From: Candidatus Pelagisphaera phototrophica
GTDB lineage: Bacteria; Verrucomicrobiota; Verrucomicrobiia; Opitutales; Opitutaceae
Assembly (NCBI RefSeq): GCF_014529625.1
Contig: NZ_CP076039.1
Span: forward strand, 558,001-622,000
DNA length: 64,000 nt
Direction: 5' to 3'
Both the position numbers and the translations under genes were made by a program. Of this stretch, positions 2,928-22,770 are shown in pieces (positions within the stretch are counted from its first letter, which is position 1; every line of letters starts with the position of its first letter). Under the pieces are notes generated by a model. The model had not been told where the DNA came from. It did no database searches and saw only the letters and a program-made list of their open reading frames with translations.

Positions 2928-2957
2928 CTAAATGAATTGTTTATTTACCAATTAAAT

Positions 2958-4322: not shown

Positions 4323-4433
4323 TTGGGTAAAGGAAACGTCTTTTCAGATCAGTTATTCCGACCGACAGGACTTAATATTACTCACAAAATATGTCGAAGG
4401 CGACAAAGCTTTCGGAGTCTTTTGTCGTATTTA

Positions 4434-7016: not shown

Positions 7017-9686
7017 ATGAACGAAAACCAACACCCTAACCTTGCTTTGAAGGTAGGTCATTTATTTCGACTGTCAAGCTTTGCGCTAATTGTAGCGATT
7101 TGCACAAAGCAAGCGCAGTCTCAAGACGTCGAGGGATCACTAGAAGATCTGGTAACGTACGGAGCCGGTGACCCAAACTTCGTTTTGCCTAACCAGCCCA
7201 TAGAAGGAGTCTTAGGGTTCTCTAAATCCATATTAGAAACGCCTAGGTCCGCTACTGTCGTGAGTTCCGAAATGATTTCGGAGTTGTCGATAAGTGAGGT
7301 GGCTGACTTAGCTCGTATTGCCCCAAGCACCAATACTGTAACCCGTTGGGGGGTACAGGGTAACATAGATATTCGTGCAATGACGGCAGACACCTACTTT
7401 CGGGGTATGAAACGAATAGAGCCCCAAGGCAATTCTCGGACGGTTTTAGGTGCGAATGATCAGATCGAAGTTGTTCGTGGTCCTGCTCCTGCTTATTTTG
7501 GATCTGGCAAAATTGGAGGATATACCAATATGACGCCGAAATCGGGTCGTTCACGGCAAGGGGCGTACCTAGAAGAGGACGAAGGTTTTGTTCAGGGAAT
7601 ATTTGGATCGTACGGCAAGCGCGAAGTTTCGCTTGGCTTCGGTGGACCAATTAACTTCACGGGCAATTCGGAGCGCCGAGGCGGTTATTATGTTTATGCT
7701 CTAGAGGAGGACTCTGAGTCGTTTTATGAGAATATTCCTATTGGGCAAAAGATTCTTCAAGGGGCGATATCTCAAGAGCTTACTGAAAGTTGGCGGCTTG
7801 AAACAGGTTTTAACCTCCAGGAAACACGTACAGCCGGCGGATTTATGACACGCATAACGCAGGACCTTATCGACAACGGTAACTACTGGGGTGGAACCTT
7901 TTTGGTCGATCTTGATCTCGATAAAAGCGGGAAGATCGGGCACTTGGAGTTCGAAACAGCTTCCCCTATAGTGTCAGGTCGTACGAACTCATCTGGGAAT
8001 AATTCACTAAGACAACGCTTCGATTCTCGTTATACAGACGCACTCGCTGGCGAAGTACCGGTCGTGGCTAACGCTAATAGTGCTTTGGAGGCTTTTCAAA
8101 CGATGCGGCCAGAATTTGCGGGAATGCTAGGGGATGCGAATATGAAGCTTTTGAACCAGCTGCCTCGGGGATTTGTAATGGACCCTGACACGGTAGAATT
8201 GACTAAAGTCGATTGGGGTCACGTATCGCTCGAGAAGGAGTTGTATGCAAAACTAGGTCTTTTTTACCTAGATTTCATCAACGATGGGGGTGACGTTAAA
8301 ATGAAGAATCAAATGATCTTGGATTCACAGGATCAATTTAAGGACTCGGAACTACCTTTCTATCAGAAGCAAGATATATGGGCTTTCGAGAACAAATTTT
8401 CTTTGGAAACAGAACTATACAGCGATAACTCGGTAACAGTCAATTCCATATCTGCTGTCAACTTTAGACATACGGATGCGCAGCGTCACTGCAACTTTGG
8501 TGATTACGACAACCGCCCAAACCTTGCGATGCCAAAGAACGAGCGGACTCCAAGGGACCTTTTCATAACTCCCAGAGAAAACTCGGATTATTATAATGGT
8601 GGAGCCCCCTACACAAGATGGCGACACAGTAAGTATGACGAGTATGGAATTGGAACTATGCTGGATATTACCGTCGGCGAAAACTTAAGCGTAATCCTTG
8701 GAGCAAGATACGACTACATCGATGCAGAGACTGCTGACTATGCGGACGTTGACGGAGAAGGAATATACGTTTTTGCTTCTGGAGCTGATGGCACACCGAG
8801 CTTCCGCACAGCAGACACATCAACTCGGGATACTGACGATGGAGTTTCGTACACGGGCAGTGTTTACTACAGTCTCCCGAACAATCTGAATTTATATGGA
8901 ACCTATGGTTTACAAACCGCGTTGTCTGACGGATCTGCTTTGACTTTAGCTCAGAACTTGATTGGAGACGGAGCGTACGCTGAAGCGAGCATAGAGGAGA
9001 TTGGAATTAAAGGGTCACACTTTGATGGAAAACTCTACTGGGCATTAGCTGGTTATCGTCAAGAGCGAGCGACTGTTGACGAGGATCCGAACGGTAATCC
9101 GCTGATCGGTAGTTTGGGTGTTCTCACTGGAGAAGGTGTAGAGCTCGAAGTTCGTTGGGTTCCTAACGAAAAGTTTTACTTGAGTGGATTCAGTGTAGCC
9201 CAAAAGACTCTCGACGTTTCAGGCCGCGCAGGTTGGCTGAGGCTTCATGGGACGACACACGGGTTCGAAGATGTACTTGATCCGGTAACTGGTGAGGTTA
9301 TTTACCCAGCTGAAGCGTTTACGTGGGGTGGTCAGGCTGGCCACAGGGTTCAAGCGGGAGAAAAAATCGAAAGGCCCGCGTATCCAAATACTAGCCACGG
9401 CATCGCTATGGGATATAAAGCCCCGTACGGTCTAAATTTTACGCTCAGCGGGAACTACATCTCTGAGGTACAATCAGGTCGCTATGGCGTGGTCATGCTC
9501 CCGGAGGCAACGACAGCCAACCTTGCAATTGGTTGGAAACGTGGAAGTTTTGCAGCTAAGCTGGATATTTTTAACCTTACAGATGAGCTCTATTTCAGAG
9601 GACGTAGCGGTAGTACATCTGGGGATGAGCTGATATCTGTAATGCTACCCCGTCGTTGGCAGGTAACGATCTCGAAGACTTTCTGA
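7017..9686 (+). CDS. TonB-dependent siderophore-type outer-membrane receptor
   Basis: An 889-residue protein with a signal peptide ending near residue 36 (AICTKQAQSQ), a plug domain and a 22-strand-type barrel. Plug evidence: ETPRSATVVSSEMISEL, RIAPSTNTVTRWGVQGNIDIR, then NDQIEVVRGPAPAYFGSGKIGGYTN, the conserved pore-plug sequence of FhuA/FepA-like receptors. The barrel ends in SKTF with terminal Phe. It binds a ligand outside the cell and imports it using TonB energy. The family is called siderophore receptor by resemblance, but this gene sits between a TonB2 module and an operon of exported amidases. A nitrogen-containing amide ligand is an equally good guess. A strong hairpin follows the gene. 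Confidence 0.88.
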   Translation: MNENQHPNLALKVGHLFRLSSFALIVAICTKQAQSQDVEGSLEDLVTYGAGDPNFVLPNQPIEGVLGFSKSILETPRSATVVSSEMISELSISEVADLARIAPSTNTVTRWGVQGNIDIRAMTADTYFRGMKRIEPQGNSRTVLGANDQIEVVRGPAPAYFGSGKIGGYTNMTPKSGRSRQGAYLEEDEGFVQGIFGSYGKREVSLGFGGPINFTGNSERRGGYYVYALEEDSESFYENIPIGQKILQGAISQELTESWRLETGFNLQETRTAGGFMTRITQDLIDNGNYWGGTFLVDLDLDKSGKIGHLEFETASPIVSGRTNSSGNNSLRQRFDSRYTDALAGEVPVVANANSALEAFQTMRPEFAGMLGDANMKLLNQLPRGFVMDPDTVELTKVDWGHVSLEKELYAKLGLFYLDFINDGGDVKMKNQMILDSQDQFKDSELPFYQKQDIWAFENKFSLETELYSDNSVTVNSISAVNFRHTDAQRHCNFGDYDNRPNLAMPKNERTPRDLFITPRENSDYYNGGAPYTRWRHSKYDEYGIGTMLDITVGENLSVILGARYDYIDAETADYADVDGEGIYVFASGADGTPSFRTADTSTRDTDDGVSYTGSVYYSLPNNLNLYGTYGLQTALSDGSALTLAQNLIGDGAYAEASIEEIGIKGSHFDGKLYWALAGYRQERATVDEDPNGNPLIGSLGVLTGEGVELEVRWVPNEKFYLSGFSVAQKTLDVSGRAGWLRLHGTTHGFEDVLDPVTGEVIYPAEAFTWGGQAGHRVQAGEKIERPAYPNTSHGIAMGYKAPYGLNFTLSGNYISEVQSGRYGVVMLPEATTANLAIGWKRGSFAAKLDIFNLTDELYFRGRSGSTSGDELISVMLPRRWQVTISKTF

Positions 9687-9722
9687 TCATAGTTGGTTTC
9701 TGACCGAAAACCCTATTAGCCA

Positions 9723-9754
9723 TCTGTTAGAGCGGGCATCCCCGCTCTAACAGA
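9723..9754 (+). terminator. Strong 14-bp stem-loop between receptor and amidase operon
   Basis: The arms tctgttagagcggg (9723-9736) and cccgctctaacaga (9741-9754) are perfect complements around the loop catc. There is no immediate T-run, but the stem is long and GC-rich. It should end receptor transcription and separate it from the amidase operon. Confidence 0.75.
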
Positions 9755-9774
9755 CACTTATAAACTTAATCGTT

Positions 9775-9825
9775 TTTACGGTCTTTGGTAATTTTTTCGG
9801 AGTTGAAATTTCAGATCTCCGTAAA
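9775..9825. promoter_or_regulatory. Nested inverted repeats in the leader of the amidase operon
   Basis: Between the terminator and the first amidase ATG, tttacgg (9775-9781) pairs with ccgtaaa (9819-9825), and ggag/ctcc lies inside. A perfect 10-base palindrome tgaaatttca sits at 9804-9813, about 35 bases before the ATG. This is the natural place for the operon promoter and for an operator, perhaps of the LysR regulator at the other end. It could also be only an mRNA leader structure. Confidence 0.4.
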
Positions 9826-9846: not shown

Positions 9847-11418
9847 ATGAATATAATAAAGTATTTTTATCACACCGGATTTTTTCTGTCGATATTTTGG
9901 TTTAGTGGATACGCTTTTTCAAAGAGTTTTTCACTAGAAAAAGCTACTATAGAAGACATAAATGAAGCCTTCGATTCTGGATCCTTGAACGCAGAAAAGC
10001 TAGTCTCCATGTACTTAAAGCGCATAGAGGCTTACGATAAAAAGGGACCTAAAATAAATACTGTTATAACGCTACAACCGAATGCAATTGAGATTGCTCG
10101 TAAGCTAGATATAGAAAGGTCTGAATCTGGACCGCGTTCGAAACTACATGGAATTCCGGTGGTATTAAAGGATTTATTCGATACTTACGATATGCCAACC
10201 TCCTCAGGTTTTCTTCCTTTAAAGAATTCTCAGCCCTTGTATGATGCGACCGTTGTCAAGAGACTTCGCGAAGCAGGAGCTATAATATTTGCAAAGGTCA
10301 ACATGAGCGACTGGTTTGGAAGCCCTGCTGATCCCAAGGACCAAAGTTCTGTACTCGGTCGCACGAATAACCCTTACAATCTCGAATTAACGCCTGGCGG
10401 GTCAAGTGGAGGAACGGGGGCAGCACTTGCTGCGGTTTTCGCCCAAATAGGACTGGGAACTGAAACCGGGGTTTCCATTCGCAATCCAACTTCAAACAAT
10501 AGCCTTGTGGGATTGGCTCCAACGCGAGGTCTAATACCACGAACGGGAATGGTGATGACTTCTTTCACACAAGAGCGCTGCGGACCAATGGGCAGGACTG
10601 TTTACGATGTGGCTGCAATGACGGATGTTGTTCAAGGCTTTGACGCAGAGGATCTCCTAACTATGAATTCACCCGGAAGAGTTCCTAAATCTTCGTACAC
10701 AACTTTTCTCGACAAAGATGGCCTTCGAGGAGCTCGTATAGGTATCTTTCGGGACCTTTTCCGTGTGGGTGAAGATCACGAAGAGGCTGTAGCATTGGTC
10801 GAATCGGCAATTCATCGGATGCACGATGCAGGTGCGACCGTGATTGATAATCTCAGTATTGGCTTGGATCTTTTTCCGTTGCTTTCAGAAACGCGGACTA
10901 ATTACTACGAGGCTCAATTTTCTTACGATATTTATTTCCGTCGGCTCGGTCCAGATGCGGTCATAAAAAATGTCGATGAGCTGATCGAGAAGGGGGGTAG
11001 CCTTGTCAAAGAAAGTATAATTCAAGGTAGGAGAGAAATAGATTCTCTCATGCATGACGCCGAGTTTTTAGCAAAGCGTGATAGTCAAGAATCTCTGAAA
11101 GCAGCAGCTCTTGATCTGATGGATAAATACCGTCTTGATGCCTTAGTATATCCTTTCAAATCCATACCTGCTGAGCCTCACGGTGAAAGGCATGACGAGA
11201 GAGATAACCCTTTCAGTTCCGTCACAGGCTTGCCGGCTTTGCTAGTACCAGCCGGTTATACTTCCGAAGAAAACGGACCTATTTCCGTAGAATTTCTGGG
11301 CAGGCCCTACAGCGAATCAATCCTTTTTAAATTGGGATATGCTTATGAGCAGCTAGGTCCAGTTCGCAAGACTCCGGAAACTACGCCTCCGCTCTCGGGT
11401 GAGACGTTTGAATACTAA
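9847..11418 (+). CDS. Exported amidase-signature hydrolase, paralogue 1 (peptide-amidase-like)
   Basis: The 523-residue protein has a signal peptide (about residues 1-25) and the full amidase-signature fold. The Ser-cisSer-Lys triad is visible as K108 (GIPVVLKDLFDT), the serine pair S186/S187 (PGGSSGGTGAA) and nucleophile S210 (TETGVSIRNP). The helix SLNAEKLVSMYLKRIEAYD and the C-terminal sequence TPPLSGETFEY recall peptide amidase (Pam) of Stenotrophomonas, which removes C-terminal amide groups from peptides. Such enzymes release ammonia from carboxamides; the signal peptide puts it in the periplasm. It is the first of eight closely spaced hydrolase genes, with 17 bases to the next. The exact substrate is unknown. 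Confidence 0.88.
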   Translation: MNIIKYFYHTGFFLSIFWFSGYAFSKSFSLEKATIEDINEAFDSGSLNAEKLVSMYLKRIEAYDKKGPKINTVITLQPNAIEIARKLDIERSESGPRSKLHGIPVVLKDLFDTYDMPTSSGFLPLKNSQPLYDATVVKRLREAGAIIFAKVNMSDWFGSPADPKDQSSVLGRTNNPYNLELTPGGSSGGTGAALAAVFAQIGLGTETGVSIRNPTSNNSLVGLAPTRGLIPRTGMVMTSFTQERCGPMGRTVYDVAAMTDVVQGFDAEDLLTMNSPGRVPKSSYTTFLDKDGLRGARIGIFRDLFRVGEDHEEAVALVESAIHRMHDAGATVIDNLSIGLDLFPLLSETRTNYYEAQFSYDIYFRRLGPDAVIKNVDELIEKGGSLVKESIIQGRREIDSLMHDAEFLAKRDSQESLKAAALDLMDKYRLDALVYPFKSIPAEPHGERHDERDNPFSSVTGLPALLVPAGYTSEENGPISVEFLGRPYSESILFKLGYAYEQLGPVRKTPETTPPLSGETFEY

Positions 11419-11435
11419 AGCCGTTGATCCAGAAT

Positions 11436-12998
11436 ATGAGATCTAGAATTTGTATAATTTGCATATCATTAACTCTATTCTTTGCTCAGTCGGCTAGATC
11501 TGAGTTGAATCTGACTACGGCAACTATAGACGACATACAGCGTGCGGTTGGAGAAGGATTACTCACGTATGAGGATCTTTGCGAAAAGTATCTTCAGCGA
11601 ATCGCTGCCTACGAGCTTAGCGGCCCAAAGCTGCATTCAATAATTTCTATCAACCCCCATTGGAGGCAGGAGGCTAAACTACTGGATAGGGAACGCCAGA
11701 CAAATGGAATACGGGGACCTCTTCATGGAATTCCGATCGCCGTAAAAGATAACATTGATACACTAGGCATTCAGAATTCCGGGGGTGCAATCGGTCTGGC
11801 TAATAACTTCGCTCCTGATGATGCGTTCGTTATAAAACAACTTAGAAAGGGTGGAGCTATAATATTTCTCAAAACTAACCTGAGCGAATTCGCCTCAGGG
11901 TCACCGGGTCTCCCGGGAGCTAGCACGCTCGGCGGGCAGCCTCGCAATCCTTATAATCTAAGAAGACATAGCGATGGTTCGAGCTCAGGAACAGGATCGT
12001 CCCTAGCAGCAGTGTTTGCGGTATCAGGGCTTGGTACAGAAACAGGATCGTCCGTCCGTGGACCATCGAGTGCTAATAATCTCGTGGGATTAGCACCAAC
12101 GGAGGGCTTAATCAGCCGCGACGGGGTAATACCGCTTTCCACAACGCTAGACCGCGTCGGTGTTATGGCGAGAAACGTGTACGACGTAGCGGTAACGTTG
12201 AATTACACCACCGGGGTAGACCCGGCGGACGCAATAACCTCTTTGAGTGATGGCAAGCTGAGCCCAGAGCCCTACCAATCTTTTTTAGACAAAAGCTCTT
12301 TGGACGGTGCTAGGCTAGGGGTGGTTAGCGAGTTATTCGTCGAGGATGATCCCGTTTGTGCCGAGGCAGTTTCGATCGTGAAAGATGCTGTATCAGACTG
12401 CGAAGCAAATGGTTCAACAATTGTCGAGGTGAATACAGGATATACGGATCTTATGGATCAGCTTTCCCTTAGTAATATAACACCCACGGAGATTGGCCCC
12501 GCCCTTGAAAGCTACTTTGCGTCTCTTGACGAATCGTATGGAGTCAAAACTTTAGAACAATTCTACAAGACAGGCGGCTTTGTGATTGGGAAATGGGAAC
12601 GCTACGAGAATGCTTTGGCTTCGGCCTCTAACTTTGATTCTCCAGATTACAAGGAGCACGTGCAGCGGCGGAAGGAAATGAGATCTGTCCTCCTAGACCT
12701 TTTAAACGACAACGGCCTGGATGCACTAGTCTACATTCACAACAACTATCCCTCAGAACTAGTTAATGAGCCGTCCACCTACACAAAAATCCGACTTAGC
12801 TCAGTCTCTGGTCTACCTGCTGTAGTAGTTCCCGCTGGAATAACGACACTTGGCCAGCCGGTTGCTGTCGAATTTCTCGGTCGAGCTTTTGATGAAGCAG
12901 CCATACTTTCGTTGGCTTATTCGTACGAGCAATCAACCGGACACCGTACTTTGCCACCAAGCACTCCCCCTCTTCTATCTGATTATGTTTCGCGGTAA
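11436..12998 (+). CDS. Exported amidase-signature hydrolase, paralogue 2
   Basis: ATG 11436 gives a signal peptide (ICIICISLTLFFAQSARS); the upstream in-frame TTG adds only four residues. At 520 residues it has the triad K104 (IPIAVKDNIDT), S182/S183 (DGSSSGTGSS) and S206 (TETGSSVRGP). It is more divergent than paralogues 1 and 4: the signature has Asp in place of the first Gly (SDGSSSG), and the C-terminus is TPPLLSDYVSR rather than the shared GEXFEY ending. The stop codon overlaps the ATG of the next gene by 14 bases, which suggests translational coupling. It is probably a periplasmic amidase with a different substrate range from its siblings. Confidence 0.87.
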   Translation: MRSRICIICISLTLFFAQSARSELNLTTATIDDIQRAVGEGLLTYEDLCEKYLQRIAAYELSGPKLHSIISINPHWRQEAKLLDRERQTNGIRGPLHGIPIAVKDNIDTLGIQNSGGAIGLANNFAPDDAFVIKQLRKGGAIIFLKTNLSEFASGSPGLPGASTLGGQPRNPYNLRRHSDGSSSGTGSSLAAVFAVSGLGTETGSSVRGPSSANNLVGLAPTEGLISRDGVIPLSTTLDRVGVMARNVYDVAVTLNYTTGVDPADAITSLSDGKLSPEPYQSFLDKSSLDGARLGVVSELFVEDDPVCAEAVSIVKDAVSDCEANGSTIVEVNTGYTDLMDQLSLSNITPTEIGPALESYFASLDESYGVKTLEQFYKTGGFVIGKWERYENALASASNFDSPDYKEHVQRRKEMRSVLLDLLNDNGLDALVYIHNNYPSELVNEPSTYTKIRLSSVSGLPAVVVPAGITTLGQPVAVEFLGRAFDEAAILSLAYSYEQSTGHRTLPPSTPPLLSDYVSR

Positions 12999-14577
12999 GG
13001 TTGAAAAGCTTATTGGTGCGTCGTTTGTGATTGCGGCTCTGATATCTCTTAATGCCAAAGAGTTCAACCTCCAGACGGCATCGGTAGAAGATATTAATGA
13101 TGCGTTTGAAGCGAAGGCTTTGACAGCAGAGGAACTAGTAAAACTTTGTATAGCTAGAATAGAGGCCTATGACCAAAAAGGTCCGAAGCTTAATTCAGTA
13201 ATAGCTATCAACCCGAATGCTTTGGAATTAGCTCGGAAACTTGATGAGGAAAGAAATATTTCTGGTCCTCGAAGTCGTATACACGGAATTCCAGTTCTTC
13301 TTAAAGACAATTACGATACCTATGACATGCCAAACACTGGGGCATCGAAGGCTTTAGTGGGAAGTATTGCTCCGGATGATGCATTCACAGTCGAAAGACT
13401 TAGAGATGCGGGGGCCATTATCTTTGCAAAAGTAAACCTTAGTGAACTTGCCCGCAGTGGGGTATCGATAAGCTCTTTAATGGGACAGACCCTGAATGCT
13501 TTTGATCAAAGCAGAACACCGGGAGGTTCAAGCGGTGGTACGGGAGCCGCCATTGCTGCTACTTTTGGTATCCTCGGAACAGGATCTGATACGGGCCAAT
13601 CTACGAGATCGCCTGCATCGGCAAATAATCTCGTTGGGATCCGTCCTACATTTGGTCTCATCAGCCGCGATGGAATTATACCTATTTCTTACACGCAGGA
13701 TACCGCGGGGCCGATAACTCGCTACGTTGCTGACGCGGCCGTCATGATGGATTATTTAGTCGGTTTCGATCCGAAAGACAAGGCGACTTGGGAGGGAATT
13801 GATAAATATCCAGAAAGTTACACATCTTATCTTCAAAAAGATTCATTGGATGGTGCTCGTATTGGTTTTGTTCCGCAGCTGCTTGGCGATGGAAGCCACC
13901 CTGATCATCCCATCGTAACAAAGGTTACTATGAAAGCTATAGAGGACATGAAGTCGGCTGGTGCTACTGTCTTCCCGGTAAGCATTCCGCTACTTGATGA
14001 CATTGCCGCTGGTAGCTTTGTGCTGAGTGTGAGTGGCTTTGAGTCGATGTGGACTATGGATGAATATTTTACTAGCCTTGGGCCCGATTCGAAATTTAAG
14101 AATTTGAAAGAATTTGTTGCTGCCGGTCTCACCTACAAACCGATTTTGGATCGCCTTAAAGAAGATATAAAATTGGAAAACGCATTGGACAATTCTGAGT
14201 ACGCTAAGCGCCTTATCAATCAATCGCGCTTCCAAGATAAACTTGTAGCGACGATGGATGAGTATGCTCTAGACGTTCTTTTTTACACTCATCAAAAGCG
14301 TTTGGTCGTCCCGGCAACTAAAAACCCTGATCAAGTGGAGCGCAACGGGTTTATGGGCTCAAGCTCGGGTCTTCCAGCGATAACGTTTCCCGGGGGATTC
14401 TCCCCTGCTAGTAATGAAGCTCCTGCTGGGGTCCCAATAGGCATAGAGTTTTTAGGGCGACCGTTCAGCGAAGCTAAGCTAATAAAACTGGCCTACAGTT
14501 ACGAGCAATTTACCAAACATCGTACCACCCCACCAGCTACTCCTTCTCTTCCCGGAGAAGCATTTGAATACCAATAA
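12985..14577 (+). CDS. Exported amidase-signature hydrolase, paralogue 3
   Basis: The start at ATG 12985 lies inside the end of the previous gene and yields a signal peptide (MFRGKVEKLIGASFVIAALISLNA). The 530-residue protein carries K107 (IPVLLKDNYDT), S182/S183 (PGGSSGGTGAA) and S206 (SDTGQSTRSP). The usual hydrophobic residue after the nucleophile Ser is Thr here. The block LISRDGIIPISYTQDTAGP closely follows Pam-type peptide amidases. An insertion-free C-terminus ends GEAFEYQ. Probable role: periplasmic deamidation within the operon. Confidence 0.87.
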   Translation: MFRGKVEKLIGASFVIAALISLNAKEFNLQTASVEDINDAFEAKALTAEELVKLCIARIEAYDQKGPKLNSVIAINPNALELARKLDEERNISGPRSRIHGIPVLLKDNYDTYDMPNTGASKALVGSIAPDDAFTVERLRDAGAIIFAKVNLSELARSGVSISSLMGQTLNAFDQSRTPGGSSGGTGAAIAATFGILGTGSDTGQSTRSPASANNLVGIRPTFGLISRDGIIPISYTQDTAGPITRYVADAAVMMDYLVGFDPKDKATWEGIDKYPESYTSYLQKDSLDGARIGFVPQLLGDGSHPDHPIVTKVTMKAIEDMKSAGATVFPVSIPLLDDIAAGSFVLSVSGFESMWTMDEYFTSLGPDSKFKNLKEFVAAGLTYKPILDRLKEDIKLENALDNSEYAKRLINQSRFQDKLVATMDEYALDVLFYTHQKRLVVPATKNPDQVERNGFMGSSSGLPAITFPGGFSPASNEAPAGVPIGIEFLGRPFSEAKLIKLAYSYEQFTKHRTTPPATPSLPGEAFEYQ

Positions 14578-14593
14578 TTAATTTCCTTCAATT

Positions 14594-16159
14594 ATGCACC
14601 TAAATAGTTTTACCGCAATCCTCATACTCTTTCTTCAAGGGTATTCCGCCAACACACTGCTCGGGTCCAACTCTGTTGATCTCGCTGATGCAACGATTGA
14701 GGACATTAATAAGGCCTTCGATGCGGGTACGCTTAATTCGGAGCAGCTCGTTCAGATGTACTTATCTCGGATAGAGGCTTACGATCAATCGGGACCGGCG
14801 ATTAATGCAATGATATTCGTCGAGCCAAACGCTTTGGAAATTGCTCGGAACTTAGATAAAGAGCGCTCCGAGAGCGGACCCCGCTCGAAAATACATGGGA
14901 TACCTTTTATATTAAAAGATCTCTTCGATTCCTTTGGTCAGCCAACCACTGCCGGCTTCATTGGATTAAAAGGATCGATGCCCTGGAGAGACGGATGGGT
15001 CGCCAAAAAACTTAAGGAAAATGGAGGTATAATCCTTGGAAAAACGAATATGAATGATTGGTTCGCAGAGGCTCCATGGGGTGCGAGCACACTTGGAGGT
15101 CAAACTCTCAACCCCTATGCACTAGAATATGTGCCTGGAGGGTCTAGTTCCGGATCGGGAGCTGGAATTGCTGCTGTTTTCGCACAAGTGAGCTTTGGAA
15201 GCGAAACGGGCGTATCGATAAGAAATCCAACCTCAGAAGCAAACCTGATTGGCCTCGCACCTACTCTTGGGCTTGTCAGCCGAACAGGTATGACAATGAA
15301 CGCATTAACCCATGAACGCGGCGGTCCGATGTGTCGGTCTGTTTATGACCTCGCAGCAACGTTGGAGGCGGTTGCGGGTTTTGATCCAGAGGATTTAGTA
15401 ACCATGGCTTCGAGAGGTAAGATTCCGGAAGGAGGGTATACTCAATACGTTGATCCGGACACAGGTTTGGTAGGCGCTCGAGTTGGGGTTCTTCGCGAAA
15501 TGTTCCGGCCTGGTGAGGTTCATGAGGAGGCAACTTCTTTGATAGAAAATGCAATAGATCAGCTAAAACAAGCTGGAGCAACTGTGATAGACCCAATTAG
15601 CACCGGTCTACCTTTACTAAGTCTGGCTACCAACACTCGAGTTTCAGCTTGGGAAAAGAAAGCGGCCACTGACTACTACTTATCTGGTCTAGGTCCGGAC
15701 GCTATGTATAAAAATATGACAGAGATGATCGAAGAAAATCCAGAGCATCTCGAACGGCTTCGGGAACGCGATAATATTGGCGTTCTAGATTTTAATGAAA
15801 GCTACATAAGCAGACTAAAAAATCGTGAGATGCTGGGTGATGCCCTAATTAGAGTTATGGACGAATTCCAATTAGATGCCCTTGTTCACCCTTTTAAAAC
15901 GTTACCGGCTACTAAAATTGTTGATGGTTGGAGTAATAGTGAGGGGGACAATGCATTGTCTTCGCAGACTGGTTTTCCCGGCCTCTTGGTCCCGGCTGGT
16001 TTCACAAACAAAAATCTGCCGATAGCTTTAGAGTTCCTAGGTCGTCCCTTTAGTGAACCTACTCTCATCAAGTTAGCGTCCGGATATGAAGCTGTCTCGA
16101 AAAACAGAAAGCTTCCTGAAACAACACCTCCCCTCAACGGAGAAGTCATTACGTATTGA
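14594..16159 (+). CDS. Exported amidase-signature hydrolase, paralogue 4
   Basis: A 521-residue amidase with a signal peptide (HLNSFTAILILFLQGYSAN). The catalytic residues are K108 (IPFILKDLFDS), S184/S185 (PGGSSSGSGAG) and S208 (SETGVSIRNP). It is closest by eye to paralogue 1: both share RSESGPRSK(I/L)HGIP, ETGVSIRNPTS and a (M/N)DWF segment about ten residues after the TNM/VNM block. This suggests a recent local duplication. It starts 17 bases after paralogue 3. Likely the same chemistry as its neighbours. Confidence 0.87.
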   Translation: MHLNSFTAILILFLQGYSANTLLGSNSVDLADATIEDINKAFDAGTLNSEQLVQMYLSRIEAYDQSGPAINAMIFVEPNALEIARNLDKERSESGPRSKIHGIPFILKDLFDSFGQPTTAGFIGLKGSMPWRDGWVAKKLKENGGIILGKTNMNDWFAEAPWGASTLGGQTLNPYALEYVPGGSSSGSGAGIAAVFAQVSFGSETGVSIRNPTSEANLIGLAPTLGLVSRTGMTMNALTHERGGPMCRSVYDLAATLEAVAGFDPEDLVTMASRGKIPEGGYTQYVDPDTGLVGARVGVLREMFRPGEVHEEATSLIENAIDQLKQAGATVIDPISTGLPLLSLATNTRVSAWEKKAATDYYLSGLGPDAMYKNMTEMIEENPEHLERLRERDNIGVLDFNESYISRLKNREMLGDALIRVMDEFQLDALVHPFKTLPATKIVDGWSNSEGDNALSSQTGFPGLLVPAGFTNKNLPIALEFLGRPFSEPTLIKLASGYEAVSKNRKLPETTPPLNGEVITY

Positions 16160-16212
16160 TTTTCATGGTCTGCAAAAACGTAAGTACGATTATAAACCAT
16201 ACAACTTTAAAT

Positions 16213-17808
16213 ATGCTTAAGCTCGGAAGAATACACCTTATCTATTTTGCATTATCGGCCTTTTTTTTAAGCAAGGTCTCTTCAGAAACTTTTGACCTTT
16301 CTACGGCTACTATTACGGACATCAATGATGCGATTGATGCAGGTGTCCTATCTTCCGAAAAGCTGGTGCAGCTATACCTCAAGCGTATAGATGCATACGA
16401 CAAGAAGGGCCCTGCAGTAAATTGCGTAATTCACATTGATGAGAACGCTCTGGAGCTGGCTAGGGAGCTAGATATCGAAAGAATTGAAAAAGGAAGACGC
16501 TCACCCATCCACGGTATCCCAATCCTTCTAAAAGATCTCATTGATGTAGCTGGCCAACCGACTACGGGAGGATTCGTTCCCTTGGGGGCTCCAATACCTG
16601 ACCGTAATGCGACGATCGTTACTAGAATGCAAGAGGCAGGCGGGATTATACTTGGCAAGGTATCTACCTCTAATTGGTTCGGCAACGATTTCGATGAAAC
16701 ACATCCAATAGGTGCGAGCAAAAACCCTTACAATTTAGAGTATTCGCCGGGTGGCTCGTCAAATGGTAGTGGAGTGGCGATGGCGGCCTACTTCGCAACT
16801 CTTGCCATCGGAACTGATACTAGCGTTTCTGTTCAAAATCCATCTGCTAACTGCAGTCTTGTTGGAATGGTTGGTACATATGGCATGGTAAGTCGTTCAG
16901 GGATAATTCCGCGCGGAGCTACACAGGATCGTCCTGGACCGATGGGCCGTAGTGTCTTCGATGTTGCAACCTTATTTAGCGTTATCTCCGGATGGGACGC
17001 GGAGGATTTTACTACTTTTAATCCGATTGGACATTTCCCGATGAGTGATTGGGCAGAAGAGCTGTCGAAGGATTCGCTCGTCGGAAAACGAATTGGTGTA
17101 CTCAGGGAAATGATACCCGTAGCCGACGAATATAAAGAGGCACTCTCAATTTTTGACGAAGCATTAATCGACTTGCGAAAGGCCGGTGCATTCATTGTTG
17201 ATCCAATTCTAACGGGAAACCCCACAATCGCTGATGATACTTCCCAACCCCGACTTCGTACGGCTGAGTATGAAAAAATACACTACACGAACGCTTATCT
17301 GGCTCGTCTTGGTGCTAAAGCACCTTTCAAAAACGTCGCCGATTGGATGGAAGCGGTAGGAGAGGACAAATTTACTCAGCGTATGGTTGATGCCATGTCA
17401 CTTGAATCACCAGACAAGAGTCTCGACTATCAGGCCCGGTACCGCACAAGAAAGATGTATATAGCTTTGATCGAAGAACTTTTTGAGCGTTATGATCTAG
17501 ATGCTATTGCCCAACCGTTTCAAGTTGCCCCCGCGCCGCGTCTAGATCGAAAGCGTGGGCCAAGCAGAGAATGGTGGATTGCTAGTCCAGCAACAAACAA
17601 TCTTTCTTCTTCATTAGGTTTTCCAGCGGTAGTTGTCCCTGGAGGTTATACTCAAGCTGAAGGGCTTCCAATAGCTATCCAATTTATGGGAAAACGGTTT
17701 ACGGATCTAGAGGTACTTAAAGTCGCTCATGGCTACGAGCAAACGACGATGAAACGCAAAACGCCCGCTTCTACTCCACGTTTAAACGGAGAAATTATAA
17801 AATATTAA
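16213..17808 (+). CDS. Exported amidase-signature hydrolase, paralogue 5, with altered signature
   Basis: ATG 16213 starts a signal peptide (LGRIHLIYFALSAFFLSKVSS); an upstream TTG would overlap the previous stop and adds an unlikely leader. The 531-residue protein keeps K107 (IPILLKDLIDV), S182/S183 (PGGSSNGSGVA) and S206 (TDTSVSVQNP). Two signature positions differ from nearly all family members: the Gly of GGSS(G/S)G is Asn, and the Arg two residues after the nucleophile is Gln. The active site is probably functional but reshaped. Ninety-one bases separate it from the asparaginase-like pair. Confidence 0.84.
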   Translation: MLKLGRIHLIYFALSAFFLSKVSSETFDLSTATITDINDAIDAGVLSSEKLVQLYLKRIDAYDKKGPAVNCVIHIDENALELARELDIERIEKGRRSPIHGIPILLKDLIDVAGQPTTGGFVPLGAPIPDRNATIVTRMQEAGGIILGKVSTSNWFGNDFDETHPIGASKNPYNLEYSPGGSSNGSGVAMAAYFATLAIGTDTSVSVQNPSANCSLVGMVGTYGMVSRSGIIPRGATQDRPGPMGRSVFDVATLFSVISGWDAEDFTTFNPIGHFPMSDWAEELSKDSLVGKRIGVLREMIPVADEYKEALSIFDEALIDLRKAGAFIVDPILTGNPTIADDTSQPRLRTAEYEKIHYTNAYLARLGAKAPFKNVADWMEAVGEDKFTQRMVDAMSLESPDKSLDYQARYRTRKMYIALIEELFERYDLDAIAQPFQVAPAPRLDRKRGPSREWWIASPATNNLSSSLGFPAVVVPGGYTQAEGLPIAIQFMGKRFTDLEVLKVAHGYEQTTMKRKTPASTPRLNGEIIKY

Positions 17809-17899
17809 TTTTTCAATTACTTAAACATTGCTCCGACTAGTCCTTACGTTTGGCGAGAAAATATTCCTCCGTGAGAAGGCAACATATATAATAGCAGAA

Positions 17900-18955
17900 A
17901 TGATGTTAAATTTATTCTCAAACTTAAGGCGATTGGTATTAGGCTCATTCATATTGCTGTCATCGATGACAATGTCTGCATCGAAATCTAATATACATGT
18001 CTTGGGAACCGGCGGAACAATTTCGGGAGCAGCTCCGAGCCCAGAAATGCTTTCAGGATACGAGTCTGGCACTTTTCCAGTAGTGGAGCTTTTGAAGGAA
18101 GTGCCAGAAGTATCTGATTTCGCTCGGGTAACAAGCGAGCAGATAATAAACGTTGGATCAGGTAGTATTAATGGGGAAGTTCTTCTGAAGCTTGCTAATC
18201 GAATAAATAAACTCTGCAAAGAAAAGCCGGAAATTGATGGTTATGTTGTTACCCATGGAACAGGAACATTAGAAGAGACCGCATATTTTCTAAATCTAAC
18301 AATTTTAAGTGACAAGCCAGTTGTGATTGTCGGTGCGATGCGTCCTTGGACTGCAACGAGTGGAGATGGACCTTTAAATCTCTACAATGCCATAAGAGTC
18401 GCTTCAGCCCCGGAATCTCGCGGAAAAGGGGCTTTGATAGTCCTGAACGATGAAATAAACTCCGCCAGAGATGGAACGAAAACGGATACTTACCGCGTGG
18501 AGACTTTCAATTCAAGAGAGTATGGATTTCTCGGATATGCCGACCCAGATAAGGTCGTTTATTATCGCAAACCGCTTAAACGGCATACTTTTCAAACGGA
18601 GTTTGATATTACGGACGTTGTCTCTCTTCCGAAAGTTGACATTGTTTACGGTTATCAGGAAGGATCCAGAGGGTCGGTTGATGGCCTTGTTGCTTCGGGG
18701 TCAGTGGGAATCATCGCAGCATCTAGGTCGCCGGATATTTCAGTCGCATTAGAAGAAGCTCAGCGAAAAGGAATAACTGTCGTTCGCAGCGATCGTAAGG
18801 GCCAAGGTCGAGTCCTCAATAGTGAGAGCCGGCTAAAGGAGGGAACAATCAGTGGTGATAATCTGAGACCACAAAAAGCAAGGATACTACTTCAACTTGC
18901 TTTGACCAAGACTAGCGAACCAACCGAGATTCAAAGGATTTTTAATCAGTATTGA
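17900..18955 (+). CDS. Type II asparaginase-like exported hydrolase, paralogue 1 (THGTG variant)
   Basis: ATG 17900 gives a signal peptide (residues 1-27). At 351 residues it has the asparaginase/glutaminase type I fold: first nucleophile T40 (VLGTGGTISG), the second-motif Thr T121 in THGTGTLEETAYFL, and the triad Lys K194 (ARDGTKTD). In E. coli AnsB the residue after the second Thr is Asp90 and the substrate carboxylate is held by Ser58-Gln59. Here they are Gly122 and Ser-Gly. Both contacts to the free alpha-amino and carboxylate groups are thus changed, so free asparagine may not be its best substrate. It is followed at 15 bases by a second copy. Confidence 0.87.
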   Translation: MMLNLFSNLRRLVLGSFILLSSMTMSASKSNIHVLGTGGTISGAAPSPEMLSGYESGTFPVVELLKEVPEVSDFARVTSEQIINVGSGSINGEVLLKLANRINKLCKEKPEIDGYVVTHGTGTLEETAYFLNLTILSDKPVVIVGAMRPWTATSGDGPLNLYNAIRVASAPESRGKGALIVLNDEINSARDGTKTDTYRVETFNSREYGFLGYADPDKVVYYRKPLKRHTFQTEFDITDVVSLPKVDIVYGYQEGSRGSVDGLVASGSVGIIAASRSPDISVALEEAQRKGITVVRSDRKGQGRVLNSESRLKEGTISGDNLRPQKARILLQLALTKTSEPTEIQRIFNQY

Positions 18956-18970
18956 GAAATTAAAAACAGC

Positions 18971-20035
18971 ATGATAAGTAAGAAAATATTACAGGTATTT
19001 TTAATACCTTCCGTTGTTTTAATTTCCTTCGCCTCAGCTTATGCTGGTTTGCCAAAAGTCGTTGTCCTCGGGACGGGGGGTACTATCCAGAGCAAAGGTG
19101 ACACTCGTATGACGCGGTACGACTATCGCGCGGGCCGATTCGATATTTCTGAGATAATAGATTTAATTCCACAAGTTAAAAAAATAGCTGAACTTGAAGC
19201 CGAACAGTTTACGAATATTGGAAGCCCGAGTATGACCCCTGATATTTGGAAGAGTCTAGCGGAAAGAATCAACGAAACTGCACTGCGTTCAGATGTATCC
19301 GGTTTTGTACTAACACACGGGACCAACACACTAGAGGAAACCGCTTATTTTCTGCATCTTACTGTGCAGACAGACAAACCGGTTGTGATCGTGGGTGCTC
19401 AGCGTCCTTCAACTTCGATCAGCGCAGACGGACCCATGAATTTTTACAACGCCGTTCAGGTTGCTGCATCACCTGAAGCGCGCGACAAGGGGGTTCTGAT
19501 CTGCATGAATCAGCAGATCAATAGTGCGAGAGAGGGCACAAAAACGAGTGCGTATAAAGTGGAAGCTTTCCAGTCGAGAGACCTCGGGTTATTGGGGGTT
19601 GTCGACCCAGATGGGGTTCATTTTCTGAGGGCACCTGTGCGTCGCCATACCTACCTATCCGAATTTGATGTGAGCGATATTTCCTCTTTCCCACGAATTG
19701 ACGTAGTACCGTCTTTCGCGGACGCGGCGGGGGACCTCATTACCTTCCTGGCTAGTGCGGGAGCGGAAGGGATAGTCCTTGCGGGTCATGGTGCTGGAGG
19801 AGCATCGCCGGCTCAAGGCGAAGCTTTTAAGACTGCAACAAGCAATGGAGTTATAGCTATCGCCTGTTCCAGAACTGGAAGCGGCCGAGTGATAGAAAGC
19901 TCGCGGATGCTGGAGTATGGTTTGATCGCAGGAGATAACCTTCTGCCTCACAAGGCACGCATTCTTCTCATGCTGGCTATAGCAAGCGGGAAGAGCGAAA
20001 GATCTGAGCTCATTCGCATCTTTGACCAATACTAA
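18971..20035 (+). CDS. Type II asparaginase-like exported hydrolase, paralogue 2 (THGTN variant)
   Basis: The 354-residue protein has a signal peptide (VFLIPSVVLISFASAYA). It carries T38 (VLGTGGTIQS), T118 in THGTNTLEETAYFL, DGPMNFYNAVQVA and K191 (AREGTKTS). The Asp after the second catalytic Thr is Asn119, and the carboxylate-binding Ser-Gln is Ser-Pro (NIGSPSM). Like paralogue 1 it keeps the catalytic threonines but not the canonical recognition residues, and the two replacements differ (Gly against Asn). It lies between paralogue 1 and amidase 6 with gaps of 15 and 25 bases. Role inferred: periplasmic hydrolysis of amides related to Asn or Gln. Confidence 0.87.
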   Translation: MISKKILQVFLIPSVVLISFASAYAGLPKVVVLGTGGTIQSKGDTRMTRYDYRAGRFDISEIIDLIPQVKKIAELEAEQFTNIGSPSMTPDIWKSLAERINETALRSDVSGFVLTHGTNTLEETAYFLHLTVQTDKPVVIVGAQRPSTSISADGPMNFYNAVQVAASPEARDKGVLICMNQQINSAREGTKTSAYKVEAFQSRDLGLLGVVDPDGVHFLRAPVRRHTYLSEFDVSDISSFPRIDVVPSFADAAGDLITFLASAGAEGIVLAGHGAGGASPAQGEAFKTATSNGVIAIACSRTGSGRVIESSRMLEYGLIAGDNLLPHKARILLMLAIASGKSERSELIRIFDQY

Positions 20036-20060
20036 ACTAGGCTAACCAGATTAATATCAA

Positions 20061-21677
20061 ATGACTTATAGCAGATTCATAAGTTTAATACTTTTATCCA
20101 TTATTCTGATTGCATCAGCAGTAGCCGAACGAGTTAGGATTCCTTTGCATGAGGCCACGATCTTCGATATCCAAAAAGCCTTCGATCAAGGAACTTTGAC
20201 GTCGGAAGAGTTGGTCGGAATGTATTTAAAGAGGATTGAAAAATACGATCAACAAGGACCGGCTTTGAATTCGATTCTTACTCTTAACGAAGAAGCAATA
20301 ACAGAGGCAAGGAAACTAGATATTGAGCGTTCAAAAACGGGTGCCCGCAGCTTGTTGCACGGTATTCCCATAATTCCGAAGGACAACTTTGACACCGCGG
20401 ATATGCCTACAACTGGTGGTTTCAAGGGACTAAAAGATTCTATTCCGGTACGAGATGCTTTTACCATTCGAAGGCTAAGGGAAAGTGGAGCAATAATCCT
20501 GGCTAAATCAAATCTGGACGAGTTTAACAGTGGCTCAAGTGGGACAAGCGGTCTGGGTGGTCAGGTACTCAACCCTTACAATCTTTCTAAAGTTCCTGGT
20601 GGCTCGAGTGCAGGGTCGGGAGCAGCGATAGCGGCAGTGTTTGGCCAGGTCGGTCTAGGAACGGAAACGGGTTCTTCAATCCGTAATCCTTCTACTAAAA
20701 ATAATCTAGTGGGTATAGCGTCTACCAATGGTTTGGTTAGTCGAGCGGGTATTGTTCCTAGTTCCATAATTCTCGACCGTGCTGGGCCGATGGCACGAAG
20801 CGTAACGGATGCAGCGATTGTACTTCAATACATGGCTGGAATGGACGCGGCCGATCTAACGACGATTGCAAGCGTTGGCAAAATGCCGGTAAATGGCTAT
20901 CATTCGTTCCTTGATGTGGACGCCCTGAAGGGTTCGCGGATCGGAGTTCTTCGAGCCAACTTTGGAAGTGATCCAGAGGATGCAGAAGCACTTTCTCAAA
21001 TCGATAAAGCCATCGATTCTCTAGCAGAGGGCGGGGCGACTCTGTTAGATCCAATCCCTGTCGGAAGTATAGATATGTTTGAAATGCTCCGAACGGTTAG
21101 TGGCTCTAGCGGTGAGCGTGCAGAAGCTATGAATCATTATCTCGCTGGTCGCGGGCCGGATGTTCCGGTAAAAACAATGCAGGAAATAGTCGGCAGTGGA
21201 TTGGCACTCGGCAAACTTCAAGAAAGGTTGGATGAATCTCTTCGTGAGGCGCCAATGTACAGAAATCCGGACTACGCTAACTTCGTTCGAAACCGGGAAG
21301 CATTCAAGAAGCTAGTAATATCATGGTTCAAAAATTACGAGCTAGACGCGATTATTTACCCATACCAAACAAAGCCAGTTTACACAATAGAACAAGCCGC
21401 ACCAAATCAGGGCGAAACGCGGTCCGAATTCAATAATTATGATGTAATGGGTCGCGGCACTCGAATGAGCACGGCCACGGGTTTTCCTGGTATCACCGTG
21501 CCTGCAGGATTTACTGCCAGCGATGGCATGCCTGTAGGATTGGAATTTCTTGGTAGACCATTTGATGAGGGAAAATTAATCGGTATTTGCTTCGCTTATG
21601 AGCAGGGTTTCAGTATGAGGAAGCTTCCCTCGATTACACCCCCTCTTGAAGCAGAATGGATTGAGTTCGATAAATAA
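20061..21677 (+). CDS. Exported amidase-signature hydrolase, paralogue 6
   Basis: The last hydrolase of the run, 538 residues, with a signal peptide (FISLILLSIILIASAVA). The triad is K107 (IPIIPKDNFDT), S182/S183 (PGGSSAGSGAA) and S206 (TETGSSIRNP). It has the TSEELVGMYLKRIEKYDQQGP helix and ends TPPLEAEWIEFDK, a variation of the ending common to the group. It starts 25 bases after the second asparaginase-like gene, so the asparaginase pair is embedded inside the amidase array. This supports a common task. No strong terminator is seen in the 142 bases before the convergent gene. Confidence 0.87.
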   Translation: MTYSRFISLILLSIILIASAVAERVRIPLHEATIFDIQKAFDQGTLTSEELVGMYLKRIEKYDQQGPALNSILTLNEEAITEARKLDIERSKTGARSLLHGIPIIPKDNFDTADMPTTGGFKGLKDSIPVRDAFTIRRLRESGAIILAKSNLDEFNSGSSGTSGLGGQVLNPYNLSKVPGGSSAGSGAAIAAVFGQVGLGTETGSSIRNPSTKNNLVGIASTNGLVSRAGIVPSSIILDRAGPMARSVTDAAIVLQYMAGMDAADLTTIASVGKMPVNGYHSFLDVDALKGSRIGVLRANFGSDPEDAEALSQIDKAIDSLAEGGATLLDPIPVGSIDMFEMLRTVSGSSGERAEAMNHYLAGRGPDVPVKTMQEIVGSGLALGKLQERLDESLREAPMYRNPDYANFVRNREAFKKLVISWFKNYELDAIIYPYQTKPVYTIEQAAPNQGETRSEFNNYDVMGRGTRMSTATGFPGITVPAGFTASDGMPVGLEFLGRPFDEGKLIGICFAYEQGFSMRKLPSITPPLEAEWIEFDK

Positions 21678-21819: not shown

Positions 21820-22770
21820 CTAGGAAATATAGTAAAGATCATAAACCCAATCTGGAATCGGAATATTGTTGGCGAATCCACGGTCATCAACACTGCAATT
21901 GTACCAATTCCAAAAAGAGCGAATGTCCTCATTAGACAGGTTGATCGATCGCGTGGTCAAAGCTCCACATTGGAAGCCAGTTTGTAAGTTCGTCGAGTTT
22001 TCTCGGCCTTTAAAAAGGCTAAGGATCTCTTCCTTAGTCAAAGGCCATTCCTCTTGCTTTAGAATTTCATACAGTTCGTCAGCATTACTTGGATTACAGA
22101 TCCAGTCTGACGCTTTTTCTATTATAGCTCTTAAATCTTCTAAAAAAACTCGATCGCGCCCAATTAGCTGATCATCGAATACAAGGATCCTTGAAGCATG
22201 GCATGCCGTCTTATTTTCCTCAATACTTATATTGTATCCCACACCTTTTTTTTCTGCGATTTTTATCCATGGCTGGTAGGTGTAGTACATGTCAATGAAA
22301 CCTGATTCTATCAGTTCCACGCCACAACAGGCTGGAACAGGAACCTTTTCAATTTGTTGGATGAAAGAACCTGAATAACCAATAGGATGCAGTGATTTTA
22401 CCGCACAAAAGTCTGGAAAATCTGGGCTGAAGGTGCCGAAACGAATTTTCTCATCAATTGACGCTAAAGTTAGTTGCTCTCTACGACTGGTTTTTCCAAC
22501 TAGTCCGTCTCCCCCAAACCCAACGACCAAACAACCCCTAACGCTAAGAGTGTTGCCTAGCGAATGGGCTGCTTTTGCGATTAGCATCGATGGATGCATT
22601 ATTGAGGCAGATAGTTCCCCACCAAATAAGTTTTTCGCCAAGGACGACCAACCGATTTGACGTCTCGGCTTTAGCTCAAAACCAAGCTCATTGAACCATC
22701 CCTTTTGCTCACAAACGAGCAATGGAGTAGCTGATAAAGAGCTTAAATAACCAACACTGAGTACTTTCAT
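21820..22770 (-). CDS. Cytoplasmic NrtA/NasS-like ligand-binding protein
   Basis: The 316-residue protein has the fold signature of NrtA/CmpA/SsuA-type periplasmic binding proteins. It starts VGYLSSLSATPLLVCEQKGWF and continues with an SWSSLAKNLFGGELSASIMHPSML-type segment, then domain-2 repeats. It has no signal peptide or lipobox, because the beta-strand begins at residue 2, so it should stay in the cytoplasm. Cytoplasmic NrtA-like proteins are known as sensors: NasS binds nitrate and releases the antiterminator NasT. No NasT/ANTAR gene is present here. Instead a LysR regulator is divergent 57 bases away. It likely senses a substrate or product of the amidase pathway, perhaps through the LysR protein. 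No ABC permease or ATPase is nearby. Confidence 0.72.
   Translation of the reverse strand: MKVLSVGYLSSLSATPLLVCEQKGWFNELGFELKPRRQIGWSSLAKNLFGGELSASIMHPSMLIAKAAHSLGNTLSVRGCLVVGFGGDGLVGKTSRREQLTLASIDEKIRFGTFSPDFPDFCAVKSLHPIGYSGSFIQQIEKVPVPACCGVELIESGFIDMYYTYQPWIKIAEKKGVGYNISIEENKTACHASRILVFDDQLIGRDRVFLEDLRAIIEKASDWICNPSNADELYEILKQEEWPLTKEEILSLFKGRENSTNLQTGFQCGALTTRSINLSNEDIRSFWNWYNCSVDDRGFANNIPIPDWVYDLYYIS

Follow-up and report, generated by a model that had tools for sequence, protein, structure and literature searches.

What purpose could be served by eight amide-hydrolase genes lined up beside a TonB system and a TonB-dependent receptor (TBDR)? Such an arrangement is found in the single-contig 4.09-Mb genome of Candidatus Pelagisphaera phototrophica (coded G000), within bases 558001-622000. 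This 64,000-nucleotide stretch is referred to as the window, and coordinates are window positions unless "genome" is stated; other genomes are coded by G-numbers, and loci or contigs by L-numbers. Between 9847 and 21677, the plus strand encodes, in order, amidases AMI1-AMI5, asparaginase-like proteins ASN1 and ASN2, and a sixth amidase, AMI6. To our knowledge, the bacterial use of amide-bound organic nitrogen is poorly understood at the gene level. We consider it fairly probable that the locus is a TonB-linked system that scavenges nitrogen from amides, with paralogues that divide the substrates between them.

The amidases of the array are old paralogues

A preliminary description of the window listed six amidases, two asparaginase-like genes, a TonB2 module, a receptor, an outer-membrane barrel, a sensor, and a LysR regulator, and Pfam searches found every one of them in its place. 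Genes of the array are separated by -14 to 25 bases, or by 91 bases ahead of ASN1 if the latter starts at ATG 17900. A hydrophobic stretch is present in the first 75 residues of all eight array proteins (15-residue Kyte-Doolittle means of 1.25-2.87, a heuristic measure), which is consistent with export.

The six amidases scored 247-299 bits against PF01425 (cut-off 27), and the Lys-cisSer-Ser (KSS) triad is intact in each. The same triad is present in 54 of 54 full-length amidases from G000, G114, G172, G599, and G598 (two proteins), and in those of G953 (24/24), G981 (5/5), and G095 (2/2), as well as in the complete pieces from G948 (4/4). The PDB sequences nearest to AMI6 are 5ewq, named amidase, and 5ac3 and 1m21, both peptide amidase. 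Against NF006006/PRK08137, whose NCBI name is "amidase" and which we take to be the model of Pam-type peptide amidases, the window enzymes scored 299-370 bits, under its cut-off of 534; none of the six exceeded the AtzE cut-offs. The genome contains 15 amidase genes in 16 PF01425 stretches, distributed between the window array, a second six-gene array, and three singles. When the 15 genes were placed at random, six of them fell within 12 kb in 0 of 20,000 trials, and chance clustering is thus ruled out.

A maximum-likelihood tree was constructed for 54 amidases, 13 of them from G000; four fragmentary amidase open reading frames (ORFs) of G599 were left out. The G000 proteins did not cluster by genome (12 label changes versus a shuffled mean of 11.8). 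Eight of the 13 (AMI1, AMI3-AMI6, B2 and B4 of the second array, and the single S1864) pair with a G114 or G599 gene at well-supported forks; AMI2, B1, B3, B5, and B6 have no cross-genome partner at such forks. Nucleophile motifs are shared within tree groups (TGQSTRSP, TSVSVQ, TGASIRSP, TGFSIRTP). Because of the cross-genome pairs, we conclude that the array paralogues are old and that recent tandem duplication is ruled out as their main origin. AMI5/B5/B6 and some G114 pairs resemble lineage expansions. The pairing is what is expected of old paralogues, and it supports the earlier suggestion that the amidases divide labour between substrates, with specificities that may differ from one to the next.

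ASN1 and ASN2 are probably not L-asparaginases

ASN1 and ASN2, the sole PF00710 (Asparaginase) genes found in the genome, both also match PF17763 (Asparaginase_C) and exceed the cut-off of 314 of the type II asparaginase model TIGR00520, with 380 and 351 bits for the two genes. Residues of the ASPARAGINASE-like enzymes were numbered by E. coli asparaginase II (EcAII). The array-type set comprised 25 intact enzymes: two from the window, six each from G114 and G953, two each from G172 and G981, three from G599, and four from G598; the second asparaginase of L117, which is frameshifted, was not counted. The orphan set was drawn from 10 of 11 single-enzyme genomes, the two-fragment asparaginase of G260, one fragment of which retains Asn248 and Glu283, being left out. 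The division into ASN1 and ASN2 types follows the residue pattern and not a tree, and other PF00710 types of the phylum (L060, L061, L072-L083) were examined and kept out of the counts.

Thr12, Tyr25, Thr89, and Lys162 are retained in 25/25 array-type enzymes, while Gln59, Asp90, Asn248, and Glu283 are retained in 0/25. All eight positions, including Asp90, are retained in 10/10 orphan type II enzymes of family members. Asp90 is replaced by Gly in ASN1 and by Asn in ASN2, and enzymes of the ASN1 type have a shortened Asn248 loop. In every array member the Glu283 loop is shorter by two residues, which leaves the residue aligned at 283 uncertain. Asp90, Glu283, and Gln59 contact the alpha-amino group of the substrate. 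An excerpt of one study names Thr12, Tyr25, Thr89, Asp90, and Lys162 as crucial for catalysis in type II L-asparaginase (PMC8256714); four of these five are present in ASN1 and ASN2, and Asp90 is missing. In an excerpt of another (PMC6667453), Asp90 is described as invariant in L-asparaginases, critical for binding canonical substrates, and indispensable for EcAII catalysis, while Glu283 is contributed by the partner protomer and Ser58 holds the alpha-carboxylate. The loss of Gln59 alone means little, since position 59 is often other than Gln in type II enzymes generally (14% of orthologues; PMC9500103, excerpt); the same excerpt mentions six to eight type II copies in some Burkholderiaceae. 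Because Gln59, Asp90, Asn248, and Glu283 are lost in all 25, the array enzymes are probably not L-asparaginases, and their active-site residues disfavour a literal use of L-asparagine or glutamine.

We infer that the substrates have changed and the enzymes are not dead, because the four catalytic residues are invariant even between diverged copies, an ASN1-type gene is followed by an ASN2-type gene in 12/12 cases, and the pooled pN/pS (the ratio of non-synonymous to synonymous change) is low. Two of the six G114 genes, both of the ASN2 type, are unpaired. The ratio was obtained by comparison with contig L038 of a metagenome-assembled genome (MAG) labelled Gammaproteobacteria, which carries the same locus at 98-100% protein identity; this MAG is likely mislabelled or mis-binned, and L038, being of the same species, was left out of locus counts. 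Over nine genes pN/pS was 0.136, from few changes (32 synonymous, 14 non-synonymous); ASN1 and ASN2 have 1 non-synonymous change against 5 and 2 synonymous ones, respectively, and AMI6 alone gave 0.63.

Loss of Asp90 is ruled out as an array-only trait, as Asn occupies this position in 6/19 other enzymes sampled from the G598 phylum, among the 20 loci listed of a longer set of matches; 4/6 keep Glu283. Asp90-to-Asn asparaginases of this phylum lie outside arrays in L122-L126, of which L123, L124, and L125 by eye adjoin glycosyltransferase-like genes. A structure predicted for ASN2 from a 6-row alignment had a predicted local distance difference test score (pLDDT) of 67 and a predicted template modelling score (pTM) of 0.58.

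The receptor and the amidases recur together

With ASN1 as the query, matches were obtained in 14 of 273 genomes of the order, of which G000, G114, and G172 are array-type and 11 are single-enzyme genomes (one with a fragmented gene). A profile search of 387 genomes of the phylum revealed no further array-type genome among the loci examined. A PF01425 search of 61 genomes of the family revealed further arrays in at least two, G953 and G981, and a receptor-profile search gave matches in 13 of 246 genomes of the order, which brought in G095, G199, and G224. The receptor and amidases were found together in nine genomes, eight of one order (G000, G114, G172, G953, G981, G948, G095, G199) and a Verrucomicrobia MAG, G599. 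Since these loci were found via the same genes, the following fractions are descriptive and not rates: receptor and amidases, 9/9; TonB/ExbB/ExbD, 7/9; asparaginase-like genes, 6/9; sensor/LysR pair, 4/9. Synteny, the check put forward in the preliminary description, bears out the earlier grouping, the array, receptor, TonB module and, in four genomes, sensor/LysR pair recurring in other genera.

The largest arrays are those of G953 (ExbB1, ExbB, ExbD, TonB, TPR, TBDR, 24 amidases, and 6 asparaginase-like genes; one strand, about 57 kb) and G114 (LysR/NMT1, ExbB, two ExbD, TonB, TPR, two TBDRs, 22 amidases, 6 asparaginase-like genes, and FmdA/AmdA). G172 has LysR/NMT1, ExbB, ExbD, TonB, TPR, ASN1-ASN2, TBDR, and 8 amidases; G981 has TBDR, 5 amidases, and ASN1-ASN2. 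In G095, two amidases and TBDR are divergent from DUF3450-ExbB1-ExbB-ExbD-TonB-TPR. G199 contains two amidases (one frameshifted), TBDR, TPR, TonB, ExbD, and ExbB (some frame-broken), with NMT1/LysR at the contig end. G948 has TPR, a more distant TBDR, four complete amidase pieces, FmdA-like ORFs, and no asparaginase at the locus. The G599 locus is spread over several contigs: L115 (amidases-TBDR divergent from ExbB1-ExbB-ExbD-TonB), L039 (TonB-TPR-ASN1-ASN2), L114 (five amidases), L117 (amidase-ASN1-ASN2-amidase, the last two frameshifted), and L116, with further pieces. L115 ends and L039 begins inside TonB, and the two may be neighbours.

Two dissimilar TonB modules occur, ExbB1-ExbB2-ExbD-TonB-TPR in G000, G953, G095, G199, and G599 (DUF3450 was checked in G000 and G095) and ExbB-ExbD-TonB-TPR in G114 and G172; the link between TonB and the array is therefore kept despite the change of module. 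Genes of the acetamidase/formamidase family were located near three of the loci, by Pfam in G114 and by own profile in G981 and G948. An excerpt of PMC5052560 mentions five or more Amd/Fmd sequences for Opitutaceae sp. TAV5.

Receptor relatives lie near genes for nitrogen compounds

Seven receptors in six genomes scored above 770 bits against the receptor profile, and 6/7 adjoin amidases. All eight weaker relatives (221-332 bits) have purine, ureide, biuret, or amidohydrolase-type genes no more than 10 kb away, a count that has no matched control in those genomes. Near the G004 receptor are an adenine-deaminase-like gene (below the model cut-off) and a permease-like protein of unknown family, which recurs, by own profiles, together with an amidase in G236. 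It is also found at a second G114 receptor locus, along with AtzE (over the cut-off), an HpxZ/HpxX-like gene (below the cut-off), and an isochorismatase-family gene. The G220 receptor has an amidase, an isochorismatase-family gene, and an allophanate hydrolase nearby, that of G002 a Xan_ur_permease, and that of G063 the start of an amidohydrolase just under the cut-off. The receptors of G049 and G030 are accompanied by NMT1 binding proteins and amidohydrolases, and that of G030 also by an ABC permease and a TonB2 module. These neighbours point to nitrogen compounds as the cargo, in preference to iron or peptides.

In G000, the TBDR of the locus is the only one of 18 plug-bearing receptors less than 10 kb from a PF01425 gene; another lies at 10.7 kb.

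TonB2 module, transcription units, and sensor

A TonB2 (TtpC) system consists of consecutive genes for DUF3450, two ExbB/TolQ-type proteins, ExbD, TonB, and a TPR protein, and Pfam identified all of these in a row beside the receptor. The genome contains 10 ExbD and 18 Plug matches. The preliminary description had proposed one operon beside a dedicated TonB2 system. The array stands as proposed. Given the 10 ExbD matches in the genome, the module is only putatively dedicated to the array, though synteny supports this. A single operon from the receptor to the amidases is doubtful, because a 14-bp hairpin (9723-9754) lies between the receptor and AMI1. The core of this hairpin has a single match in the genome and none in the loci fetched from other species, which rules out a repeat-element origin; the hairpin would be a terminator or a processing site. 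Counts from promoter and terminator scans were close to those in shuffled sequences (19 versus 26.5, sd 6.1, and 20 versus 16.6, sd 4.8) and were uninformative on operon limits.

The candidate sensor probably has a binding-protein fold, judging by its match to PF13379 and to NrtC/CmpA-type proteins, and by eye it shows no obvious signal peptide. Its profile is closest to the NrtC/CmpC regulatory domain (3e-31), with CmpA/NrtA less strong. The divergent NMT1-like/LysR pair is also present in G114, G172, and G199, where it is cut by the contig end.

Table 1. Genes and other features of the locus, in window coordinates unless a contig is named.
Feature	Position	Strand	Basis and remarks
DUF3450 gene, TonB2 module	L014:11890-12747, just upstream of window		Pfam match
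ExbB1 (TtpC-like MotA/TolQ/ExbB), TonB2 module	9..1184	+	PF01618, 112 bits; start codon uncertain, may begin upstream of window
ExbB2	1210..1821	+	PF01618
ExbD	1832..2242	+	PF02472
TonB	2250..2927	+	PF03544
TPR protein, TonB2 module	2937..4322	+	TPR families; equivalent position in G953, G095, G199
Outer-membrane barrel, no plug domain detected	4323..6683	+	PF14905; TIGR01782 partial, below cut-off; next gene after the TPR gene
TBDR, locus clade	7017..9686	+	PF00593 and PF07715; relatives adjoin amidases in other array loci
14-bp perfect hairpin, receptor/array boundary	9723..9754	+	-33.9 kcal/mol, z -6.9 for 9700-9790
AMI1, exported (predicted) amidase	9847..11418	+	PF01425, triad KSS, motif TGVSIRNP; tree partners in G114, G599
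AMI2, exported (predicted) amidase	11424..12998	+	PF01425, triad KSS, motif TGSSVRGP; no resolved tree partner
AMI3, exported (predicted) amidase	12985..14577	+	PF01425, triad KSS; motif TGQSTRSP common to G599 partner; start as in L038
AMI4, exported (predicted) amidase	14594..16159	+	PF01425, triad KSS, motif TGVSIRNP; G599 partner
AMI5, exported (predicted) amidase	16156..17808	+	PF01425, triad KSS, motif TSVSVQNP (Arg to Gln); alternative start 16213; G599 partner
ASN1, asparaginase-fold enzyme	17828..18955	+	PF00710, TIGR00520; Asp90 to Gly, Asn248 loop deleted; start probably 17900
ASN2, asparaginase-fold paralogue	18971..20035	+	PF00710, TIGR00520; Asp90 to Asn
AMI6, exported (predicted) amidase	20061..21677	+	PF01425, triad KSS, motif TGSSIRNP; G599 partner
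NMT1-like binding-protein-fold sensor	21820..22770	-	PF13379; no obvious signal peptide by eye
LysR-type regulator, divergent from sensor	22828..23823	+	PF00126, PF03466

Further downstream, at 24910-28012, are two sulfatase genes, and the GC content rises to about 51%, as if another gene block begins there.

Other amidase and TonB2 loci of the genome

The second array consists of six amidases (genome 2106304-2116005, L011/L012) and contains no asparaginase. By eye, its proteins B3 and B4 have twin-Arg-like signals at the N-terminus; next to the array are genes for a DUF7133/GDSL protein, ThuA, and a protein whose family is unknown. A block at genome 3180724-3194936 (L015) contains a TonB2 module, FmdA/AmdA, a shorter amidase, a PhoD phosphatase, a cytochrome P450, a purine nucleoside permease, and a Xan_ur (xanthine/uracil) permease, with a plug-bearing receptor about 4 kb away. 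This block is possibly a purine-scavenging counterpart of the window locus.

Discussion

We propose that the TBDR, powered by the adjacent TonB2 module, would import amide- or ureide-type compounds, whose amide bonds would be cleaved in the periplasm by six exported amidase-signature enzymes and two re-purposed asparaginase-fold enzymes, each paralogue taking a different amide. The released ammonium and acids would then enter the cell via transporters encoded elsewhere. The NrtA-like binding protein, presumably cytoplasmic, would sense a nitrogen-related ligand, and the divergent LysR protein would control the locus. Gene content, catalytic residues, the recurrence of the association, and the age of the paralogues are observed; export, import, the class of substrate, sensing, and the sequence of steps are deduced.

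Several points weigh against this proposal. The G224 receptor has no amidases and adjoins two paralogues of unknown family, and the best PDB match of the receptor profile is a siderophore receptor, 5fp1. No TonB genes were present in the 60 kb read in G981, and in G948 the TPR gene alone stands for the TonB module. The NMT1/LysR pair was not found in the stretches of G953, G981, G948, G095, and G599. In the array loci, no inner-membrane importer was recognised. ASN1-ASN2 pairs of G598, a Bryobacterales MAG, lie on two contigs (L118, the same as L040, and L119) with no adjoining amidases, and the ORFs of the 32-kb stretch surrounding the second G000 array included no receptor. Judging by the hairpin, the messages of receptor and array may be separate or processed in different ways. 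The selection of the nine loci by their own genes and the uncontrolled count of receptor neighbours belong here too. One of the G598 pairs has an outer-membrane barrel on one side and, on the other, a dihydropyrimidinase-like protein that apparently carries a signal.

Other functions can be envisaged. The preliminary description inferred import of amidated compounds, perhaps peptide amides or Asn/Gln-rich oligomers, and proposed that they would be deamidated stepwise. In the peptide version, the receptor would import peptides, Pam-like amidases would cut C-terminal amides, and the asparaginases would deamidate Asn and Gln. Of the three PDB sequences nearest to AMI6, two are indeed peptide amidase, but all six window amidases score below the PRK08137 cut-off, no peptidase was recognised among the identified locus genes (not every ORF was scanned), nor any peptide transporter in the loci, the neighbours of the wider receptor relatives are genes of purine, ureide, biuret, or amidohydrolase type, and Gln59, Asp90, Asn248, and Glu283 are absent from all 25 array asparaginases. 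We regard peptide processing as unlikely, and the Asn/Gln part of it is not supported. That the asparaginase-like members are inactive relics in a drifting duplication is quite improbable; the loss of a residue termed indispensable in EcAII (PMC6667453, excerpt) and a frameshifted G599 copy would fit, but the four retained catalytic residues, the fixed ASN1-ASN2 order, and the scarcity of non-synonymous changes argue for function.

Xenosiderophore use, in which the receptor takes up siderophores of the ferric hydroxamate type and the amidases cleave their amide bonds, draws on the match to 5fp1 and on very weak matches to Fiu, FhuE, FoxA, and ferrioxamine receptor models. The latter are all far below cut-off and may be usual for many TBDRs; moreover, the neighbours of weaker receptor relatives include purine, ureide, or biuret genes, the loci contain no recognised iron transporter, and the sensor is nitrate/bicarbonate-like, so that we hold this explanation to be very improbable. 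We give hardly any credence to periplasmic detoxification or signal quenching, i.e., hydrolysis of amide antibiotics or N-acyl signals: broad paralogue sets would be compatible with diverse toxins, but an energised import receptor and a nitrogen-type sensor fit poorly, and no efflux gene was recognised as a common component.

Compared with known systems, the proposed amide-nitrogen locus resembles in organisation the polysaccharide utilization loci (PULs) of Bacteroidota, which likewise combine a TonB receptor, many exported hydrolases of related families, and a local regulator. PULs have a SusD-like lipoprotein beside the receptor and carbohydrate-active enzymes, whereas no SusD-type lipoprotein was found among the 17 window genes scanned, the hydrolases would cut amides and not glycosides, and TonB/ExbB/ExbD genes are inside the locus. 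The organisation is thus known, while the enzymes differ, and presumably the cargo too. The nearest named relatives of the amidases by sequence are peptide amidase Pam (PDB 1m21/1m22) and NCBIfam PRK08137/PRK06828, with the KSS triad in common; the array enzymes differ in falling below the cut-offs, in being diverged around the nucleophile, and in forming clusters of 2 to 24 genes. ASN1 and ASN2 share family, TIGR00520 score, and 4/5 catalytic residues with type II L-asparaginase, but lack Asp90, Gln59, Asn248, and Glu283, and occur as pairs. The module has the gene order of TonB2 (TtpC-ExbB2-ExbD2-TonB2) systems, DUF3450-ExbB-ExbB-ExbD-TonB-TPR, but is tied to an amidase array and is substituted by a simpler ExbB-ExbD-TonB set in G114 and G172. 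As in NasS-NasT and AmiC-AmiR, a candidate sensor of probable binding-protein fold, which may be cytoplasmic, lies beside nitrogen or amide genes; NasT and AmiR are ANTAR antiterminators, whereas the neighbour here is a divergent LysR protein. Genes of oxalurate (Hpx), biuret/allophanate (AtzE/AtzF-type), and purine catabolism adjoin some weaker receptor relatives in G114, G220, G236, and G004; such enzymes differ from the exported array enzymes, and the G114 protein of AtzE type scores above the AtzE cut-offs, as no window amidase does. Among the open-access literature matches listed, there was no description of such a TonB-linked amidase/asparaginase locus.

A bolder version, which we hold only tentatively, is that these loci form a distinct, undescribed TonB-linked class with amide-nitrogen cargo (e.g., dissolved organic nitrogen of the oligo-amide or ureide kind) and that ASN1 and ASN2 are an obligate mixed enzyme. 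The mixed enzyme is proposed because residue 283 of EcAII completes the site of the partner and because ASN1 precedes ASN2 in every pair. If true, the two proteins would together form a new active site, suited to amides that have no free amino-acid head. A natural asparaginase-fold family that lacks Asp90 and keeps four of five catalytic residues matters for the mechanism of a drug enzyme and for biocatalysis. With a receptor, many enzymes, and a candidate sensor, the locus makes the question of amide-nitrogen use directly testable.

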